Source: Candidatus Methanoplasma glyptotermitis
GTDB taxonomy: Archaea > Thermoplasmatota > Thermoplasmata > Methanomassiliicoccales > Methanomethylophilaceae
Assembly: GCA_031267895.1 (NCBI GenBank)
Contig: JAIRYF010000016.1
Coordinates: 1 to 45,921 of the forward strand
Length of the DNA stretch: 45,921 bases
Reading direction: 5' to 3'
The position numbers and the translations under genes are program-made. Below, one piece after another: positions 26,344 through 29,188 of the stretch; the stretch's first letter is position 1, and every line of letters starts with the position of its first letter. A model generated the notes under the pieces. It saw only the letters and a list, made by a program, of their open reading frames with translations, did no database searches and was not told where the DNA came from.

Positions 26344-26368
26344 GATTTATATCTTATTCGATATAGTG
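26344..26368. promoter_or_regulatory. interlaced divergent promoters of the HTH/TPR gene and dtdA
   Basis: On the + strand GATTTATATC (26344-26353) is centred 27 bases ahead of the dtdA ATG at 26376. On the - strand the TATA in CACTATATCG (26368-26359) is about 28 bases ahead of the ATG at 26335. Both transcripts would be leaderless, and only 40 bases separate the two starts, so the polymerases compete and one bound regulator could affect both genes. Confidence 0.55.
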
Positions 26369-26375
26369 CCGGTAA

Positions 26376-27224
26376 ATGACGGAAAAAAAGAGACTGCTGG
26401 TATGCAGCGAGGCTGACATACCGTCCGTTAACATGAAAGACAGACTCATCATGAAAAGAGAATGGGAGGACCTCGGATACAGCGGCAGAGATCGCTTCCT
26501 CACGAGCGGAGACCTCGTGATTATGATAACCCCCGATCTCCACATCCGAATGGAGGATCTCGACGGGAGAACAGACAAAGCAGGTCTGCGAATCGAAGAG
26601 GTGATATTTATGTCAAAACATTCCGCGACAAGCGGAGAAGCGGCACTGACAGTTCACCCCATCGGAAACTATCGTGATAACAGACTCGGAGGCCGCGAGA
26701 GGACTTTGGTCAGGTCCAGCCCGGCCCTGATGACGGATGCGCTGAGAAAAATATAGATGTACAACTGCCTTACCGATTTTAAAGTATGTTTCGAGGTGAC
26801 ACATCACGGTCCGTGGCTGGATAAACCGACATTTTTCATAGAGATAGGGAGCGATGAACGGAAATGGGGCAGCATAGAGGCGGCGGACATTCTGTCAAGA
26901 GTTCTGCTGGACATTGAATCTAACGAGTACTGCTCGGCAGTGGGCGTTGCGGGCGGACATTATGCACCGAGGTTCACAGAAATTGCGCTGAAATTTAAGA
27001 TAAACTTCGGTCATATGATACCGAATTACCATATCGAAGGAAGCAGTGACGAAGACATCATCAGAATGATCGGAGATGCATGCAGCGCATCAGACACAAA
27101 GCTTGTCTACATGCACAGGAAATCCCTGAAGAGTCCCGAGGAGAAGAGGATATCGGATCTGGCTGTATCGGCGGGATTCGAATTGATATCCTCATCCTGT
27201 CTGGAACCTATCAGCGGGAACTGA
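26376..27224 (+). CDS. dtdA: D-aminoacyl-tRNA deacylase (DTD2/DtdA) with in-frame TAG at codon 127
   Basis: DTD2 frees tRNA from D-amino acids in archaea and plants. Two halves lie in the same frame, separated only by TAG at 26754-26756. Residues 1-126 carry SKHSATSGEAALTVHPIGN (79-98) and LGGRERTLVRSSPALM. Residues 128-282 carry EVTHHGPW (140-147), FFIEIGSDERKW and GGHYAPRF (193-200). All are hallmarks of one DTD2 protein of about 280 residues, and neither half is a complete enzyme. The TAG is followed directly by ATG, with no SD before it. In pyrrolysine-using archaea TAG can be read as sense, so a single Pyl-containing protein is the simplest reading. Alternatives are a nonsense mutation or a split protein made by reinitiation. 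It ends in TGA and overlaps the convergent UMP kinase gene by 14 bases. Confidence 0.85.
26754..26756 (+). other. in-frame TAG codon, candidate pyrrolysine site
   Basis: The TAG lies between LMTDALRKI and MYNCLTDFK in dtdA, in what should be a helix-to-strand segment of DTD2. It is the only TAG in stop position of any recognisable gene in this window; the others end in TGA (most) or TAA. Confidence 0.6.
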
Positions 27225-27955: not shown

Positions 27956-29188
27956 ATGAGTGACGCTAACGCTCTGGATAGAGCAAGATATGACTTCAAG
28001 AAGGCTATGCAGGAGATAACATCATACCGAGGCAGAGGGACAGAGCTCATATCTGTCTACGTACCCAATTCAAAGATGATCTTTGATGTCATGGCATATC
28101 TCAGAGAAGAACAGTCGCAGGCATCCAACATAAAATCCAAATCAACGATGAAAAACGTCACCGGTGCCATCGACTCCATAATGTCCAGGCTGAGAACTTA
28201 CAAGAACGCACCGCCGAACGGGCTGGTCATATTCTGCGGGGAGGTGCCGCGTGCGGGAGACCAGACCAAAATGGTCCAGTATACATTGGAACCTCCGGAA
28301 GAAATAACAACATTCCTGTACAGATGCGATTCGGAATTCTTCACAGAACCTCTGAATGATATGCTTCTCGACAAGAGATCATACGGACTCATTACCATCG
28401 ACAGGAAAGAGGCCACTCTCGGTCTGCTTTCCGGAAGCAGGATATCTGTTCTGAAACACTTTGATTCGCTGGTTCCCAGCAAACACCATCAGGGCGGTCA
28501 GTCATCCGTGCGTTTTGAGAGACTCATAGAGATTGCGGCTCATGAATTCTACAAAAAAGTAGCCGATAACGCCACCGAAGTGTTCCTGAACAGACCGGAA
28601 CTGCAGGGAATAATCGTCGGGGGTCCGGGTGCGACCAAGGATTTCTTTGTGAAGGAAGAATACCTTCATCATGAACTCAGAAAAAAGGTCGTGAATCCGC
28701 TGTTTGATACCGGCTACACAGACGAATCGGGACTCAGGGAACTTGTAGATGTCGCGAAGGATACCCTGACGGACATCCAGCTCACTGTGGAGAAAGGGTA
28801 CATGCAGAGGCTTTTCGGGGAGATCAGAAAGCCGGACGGAGGTCTGTCAGCATACGGCGAGGAGCAGGTGAGGGCGGTCACGGAGGCCGGAGCGGCTGAT
28901 GTGCTTCTGCTTTCGGAGTCGCTGAACCGATACAGAGTGGAAACGGAATGCGGTTCAGGCCACACAACAAAGGCTACGGTGTCCGACCCTGACGGAAAAT
29001 TGCTCTGCCCGGAGTGCGGACAGCCCGCCAAAGTGCTGTCGCAGACAGATCTCATCGATGATTTCTTCGAGATCTCGGAAGGATTCAATACAAAGGTGCA
29101 GCTCATCTCGGGAGATTCGGAAGAAGGAGATATGCTTCTGAAGGCATTCGGAGGAATAGCCGCAATTCTAAGATACCGGGTGGGATGA
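27956..29188 (+). CDS. peptide chain release factor aRF1
   Basis: 410 residues. aRF1 reads all stop codons in the A site and triggers hydrolysis. The stop-recognition motifs are intact: NIKS at 58-61 and YxCxxxF as YRCDSEF at 122-128. The catalytic GGQ is at 180-182 (KHHQGGQSS, with Gln where Arg is more usual before GGQ). A C-terminal mini-domain has Cys and His residues (CGSGHTTK, CPECGQ), as in archaeal aRF1. Nothing in these motifs suggests loss of UAG reading, so any amber readthrough here would compete with termination. The SD GGTGG sits six bases ahead. The stop overlaps the first possible start of argS. Confidence 0.95.
   Translation: MSDANALDRARYDFKKAMQEITSYRGRGTELISVYVPNSKMIFDVMAYLREEQSQASNIKSKSTMKNVTGAIDSIMSRLRTYKNAPPNGLVIFCGEVPRAGDQTKMVQYTLEPPEEITTFLYRCDSEFFTEPLNDMLLDKRSYGLITIDRKEATLGLLSGSRISVLKHFDSLVPSKHHQGGQSSVRFERLIEIAAHEFYKKVADNATEVFLNRPELQGIIVGGPGATKDFFVKEEYLHHELRKKVVNPLFDTGYTDESGLRELVDVAKDTLTDIQLTVEKGYMQRLFGEIRKPDGGLSAYGEEQVRAVTEAGAADVLLLSESLNRYRVETECGSGHTTKATVSDPDGKLLCPECGQPAKVLSQTDLIDDFFEISEGFNTKVQLISGDSEEGDMLLKAFGGIAAILRYRVG

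Follow-up and report, generated by a model that had tools for sequence, protein, structure and literature searches.

A D-aminoacyl-tRNA deacylase gene with an in-frame amber codon, probably read as pyrrolysine, in Candidatus Methanoplasma glyptotermitis

The dtdA locus and its amber codon

The window, i.e., the whole stretch of 45,921 nucleotides that was analysed, comes from a gut-type methanogen and carries a gene for the D-aminoacyl-tRNA deacylase DTD2 (dtdA), whose reading frame is interrupted by one in-frame TAG (Table 1). That a single DTD2 frame is split by this codon at residue 127 had been predicted earlier from the sequence, and the coordinates, the residue number and the motifs named on its two sides all proved correct. 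The two halves match consecutive stretches of the Pfam profile PF04414, with 55.6 bits for the 5′ half and 131.9 bits for the 3′ half, and the read-through product gives one match of 200.5 bits (cut-off 33.6) across the whole domain. The frame contains neither a second stop nor a frameshift, and the observation of a TAG within an intact DTD2 gene is confirmed. The genome is a draft of 1.72 Mb in 72 contigs with a completeness of 97.9%. Further dtdA copies lacking the TAG would have spoken against the original prediction; PF04414 has a single match in the whole genome, such that dtdA is a single-copy gene.

A TATA-box-like element, TTTATATC, precedes the gene at a distance that would be consistent with a transcript that is leaderless or nearly so. 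The gene for the release factor aRF1 is the second one downstream of dtdA, with a UMP kinase gene on the opposite strand between them. aRF1 is the competitor of tRNA-Pyl at TAG, and termination must compete with decoding to some extent. No PYLIS-like stem-loop was found 3′ of the dtdA TAG: the 110-nt stretch that begins there has a poorer fold than its shuffled versions (z = +1.86). This fits reports that such a stem-loop or other cis element is not required for pyrrolysine insertion (PMC8211752).

Table 1. Features of the dtdA locus and TAG-bearing or related genes elsewhere (G000 is the host genome)
Feature	Location	Strand	Details
dtdA, D-aminoacyl-tRNA deacylase DTD2	26376..27224	+	282 codons, TAG is codon 127, terminator TGA
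In-frame TAG, proposed pyrrolysine codon	26754..26756	+	From translation of the frame; column variable in 93 relatives
dtdA 5′ part	26376..26753	+	126 codons; PF04414 positions 4-58
dtdA 3′ part	26757..27224	+	155 codons and stop; PF04414 positions 65-204; holds THHGP and GGHYAPRF
ATG abutting the TAG, possible restart if the gene were split	26757..26759	+	From sequence; Met not among the common column residues of relatives
TATA-box-like element	26346..26353	+	23-30 bases 5′ of the dtdA ATG, read from sequence
aRF1 release factor gene	27956..29188	+	Ordinary NIKS motif (SNIKSKST), intact frame
tRNA-Pyl-like gene	L101 about 8047-7978 (G000:C35)	minus	Read by eye
Bacterial-type AspRS	L119:2541-4349 (G000:C14)		TAG at 2856; Glu in G016; no ATG after TAG
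Unnamed protein	TAG at L175:14318 (G000)		Histidine-rich start, no Pfam match; Tyr in G016
Repeat protein	TAG at L185:16316 (G000)		SLETVTI repeats; sister repeats have Gln or Leu
NifH/CfbC-like gene, G016	L148:4897-5670		Two in-frame TAGs
Neighbouring CbiX gene, G016	L148:4065-4847		One in-frame TAG
Second DTD2 with in-frame TAG, G060	L038; G060:C62:13505-15404		TAG near the C-terminal part

Conservation of DTD2 and variability of the TAG column

All of the 40 DTD2 columns that are conserved at 97% or more are intact in this gene, 16 of them before the TAG and 24 after it. When dtdA is compared with that of a relative (G016), the differences at the three codon positions amount to 0.18, 0.17 and 0.60. 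In either half, changes at third positions are three- to fourfold more frequent than at the first two. Given these codon-position differences and the lack of any changed column among the 40 conserved ones, the frame is not a product of chance. The constraint persists in both halves on the branch that leads to the TAG-bearing dtdA, and this terminal branch is, again in both halves, somewhat longer than those of its sisters.

The codon itself sits in a variable stretch that conserved blocks flank on both sides. In an alignment of 94 DTD2 sequences from the family, its column has an entropy of 3.06 bits and contains Ser (22), Val (21), Ala (15) and Lys (12), along with Gln, Arg and others; members of the genus have Ala, Ser, Val or Asn there. 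Codons one step away from TAG (TCG, AAG, CAG and TCA-type neighbours) are common in it. A TAG occurs in this column in no other gene of the 94, and it is likewise absent from this position in the remaining 137 DTD2 genes of the order. An alignment of dtdA across Methanomassiliicoccales had been suggested as a check; the family alignment shows sense codons, including those for Lys and Gln, and not a conserved TAG. A TAG column conserved among relatives, as in MtmB, would mark a functionally selected Pyl residue, and such conservation was not found for DTD2.

The known DTD2 structures 1YQE (AF0625) and 2GFQ (PH0006) come from full-length relatives whose alignment with dtdA extends over the TAG and places a standard residue opposite it (in 1YQE about Arg125, as judged from the alignment). 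A structure predicted from five sequences (mean pLDDT 49) has a helix at residues 116-130. Taken together, this low-pLDDT model and the 1YQE alignment lend weak support to a placement of codon 127 that would be compatible with a helix end.

Each of the 74 well-assembled genomes from the order has DTD2. Its halves were not found as separate genes in any relative; each of the other 137 genes gives one continuous match, which in one case ends at a contig end. Stops within the conserved domain occur in two of the 138 DTD2 genes, both times as TAG (TAA 0, TGA 0) and at different places. The second case comes from another genus of the family (G060), where the TAG lies in the residue context KDAC-TAG-ATGTK, in a column that is mostly Glu in relatives, and is followed by GCA, not by ATG. 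Apart from the one in dtdA itself, this TAG is the sole stop within the domain in the DTD2 genes of the order. Both genomes with a TAG-bearing DTD2 carry pylS, which is also present in 75 of the 102 genomes of the family; with so few cases, a link between the DTD2 TAG and pylS is suggestive only.

Pyrrolysine machinery and TAG usage in the genome

The search for pyl genes in the same genome, which the original prediction had recommended, was successful. Contig C35 carries a complete cassette in which PylS (283.9 bits), PylB (452), PylC (337) and PylD (209) all score above the NCBIfam cut-offs, together with the corrinoid activase RamA (701). The contig also has two mtmB genes with one in-frame TAG each, and two more TAG-bearing frames that we take to be mttB and mtbB. 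Just upstream of pylS lies a tRNA-Pyl-like gene, GGGGGACGGTCTGGGACCAGTAGGCCTCTAAAGCTGAACCAGCGGGGTTCGATCCCCCGGTCTCTCGCCA, with a CUA anticodon. ARAGORN and Rfam made no call for it; tRNA-Pyl is known to be unusual in Methanomassiliicoccales (PMC3941956).

Terminators were examined in a 678-kb sample of the host genome, which was compared with 800 kb of sequence from the relative G016. The 154 coding-confirmed genes of the host end with TGA (122) or TAA (32) and never with TAG, and the same holds for G016 (TGA 123, TAA 50, TAG 0; n = 173). Internal stops were surveyed by a codon-position filter and a codon-usage scan, both set against shadow frames and sequence 5′ of true starts. In-frame stops in real genes proved to be TAG: inspected by eye, the TAA and TGA cases were, apart from a few ambiguous ones, shadow or antisense frames, upstream extensions and junctions between tandem genes. 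AlaRS is a poor control in this context, because the model fits few of these genomes.

Besides the methyltransferases and dtdA, the genes of the sample with an in-frame TAG are those for a bacterial-type AspRS, an unnamed protein and a repeat protein. In the TAG-bearing genes other than dtdA, including the DTD2 gene of G060, the TAG is not followed by an ATG. None of the 86 remaining matches to the bacterial-type AspRS in the family has an in-frame TAG. The TAG of this AspRS is not taken as proof that the Pyl system is essential, since the genome also has an archaeal AspRS-type gene that is free of TAG (G000:C29).

Reading of the codon and its significance

The dtdA TAG is very probably read as pyrrolysine, giving a full-length DTD2, and was probably gained in a near-neutral manner. 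The codon would have arisen by a point substitution in a variable, permissive column, and tRNA-Pyl(CUA) would insert pyrrolysine at codon 127, at whatever efficiency, to yield one protein of 282 residues. The genome would tolerate the TAG in dtdA because it decodes this codon constitutively and does not depend on it for termination. Of what had originally been proposed, Pyl decoding is well supported by the cassette, by TAG-bearing mtmB and the presumed mtbB and mttB, by the fact that no sampled gene ends in TAG and by the other TAG genes. The idea that chiral proofreading is tied in some special way to pyrrolysine supply is unsupported, as conservation of the codon would be expected and is lacking: a TAG at this position occurs in this genome alone, and its column is variable.

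One point against pure read-through is the ATG abutting the TAG, which it leaves as an unexplained coincidence and which had earlier prompted the idea of a split protein; the presence of an ordinary aRF1 and the somewhat long branch are others. Translation would then stop at the TAG and restart at the adjacent ATG, and the subunits of 126 and 155 residues would assemble into DTD2. The abutting codons make this possible, relatives do not commonly have Met in the ATG column, and the break falls between conserved blocks; furthermore, a stop followed by a nearby Met is seen in many tandem genes here, but with TGA. A terminating TAG would be exceptional where TAG ends none of the 154 other sampled genes, none of the other DTD2 genes among the 138 of the order is split there, and the other in-frame TAG genes, that for the G060 DTD2 included, lack an ATG at this place. 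A split gene is a poor fit to these observations, and we consider it unlikely.

Less likely still is a switch, in which charged tRNA-Pyl would give full DTD2 through the TAG-ATG, whereas its lack would give two halves or too little enzyme. If true, tRNA proofreading would follow the Pyl (methylamine) state of the cell. The one point that speaks for such a regulatory link is the dependence inherent in the codon itself.

A recently formed pseudogene with a chance TAG might be suspected from the privacy of the codon and the somewhat long branch, but is highly improbable with 40 intact conserved columns, no second stop or frameshift, codon-position bias retained in both halves, and dtdA being the sole copy of a gene that all 74 well-assembled genomes of the order possess. 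A sequencing or assembly error at the TAG, conceivable in a draft of 72 contigs, is just as improbable, since errors would produce TAA and TGA as well, and an independent TAG exists in the DTD2 of G060.

Pyrrolysine in a DTD2 would be decoded by the same cassette as in MtmB, MtbB and MttB, but there the residue is conserved and catalytic, whereas the DTD2 position is variable. A closer counterpart is the tRNA-His guanylyltransferase Thg1, a pyrrolysine-containing protein of Methanosarcina (Heinemann et al. 2009, cited by PMC8211752 and PMC3639795). As far as these citing papers describe it, Thg1 likewise serves tRNA quality in a methanogen that decodes Pyl, and its in-frame TAG, which is private and stands where the protein tolerates it, is explained by neutral evolution; it differs in being another enzyme from another archaeal order, and pyrrolysine in DTD2 is a prediction from sequence. 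Within the same order, the study of 'Ca. Methanomethylophilus alvus' by Borrel et al. (2014, PMC4153887) gives TAG as only 1.6% of terminators, compared with none of 154 in our sample, and lists 16 predicted Pyl proteins besides the methyltransferases, which it reads as stable mutations in a suppressing background; DTD2 is not named in the accessible text of its Table 7. In view of the Thg1 precedent and these in-frame TAG genes of the order (PMC4153887), the DTD2 TAG is of a known kind, i.e., a new example of known drift and not a new mechanism. None of the literature matches listed treats DTD2 and pyrrolysine together.

If the codon is read in this way, a tRNA-proofreading enzyme joins the predicted pyrrolysine proteins outside methylamine metabolism, and such enzymes would be broken into two pieces by annotation with the standard code. 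Drift would make ordinary housekeeping proteins, among them enzymes of translation quality, dependent on the Pyl system, and this dependence would make the loss of pyl genes hard in such lineages. The absence of TAG terminators from the sample and the further in-frame TAG genes point to a lineage in which TAG nears a plain sense codon. A paper from 2025 reportedly describes archaea in which every TAG codon stands for pyrrolysine. In the relative G016, the TAG-bearing genes include a NifH/CfbC-like gene and its CbiX neighbour, both of which may have a role in the synthesis of coenzyme F430 or corrinoids.
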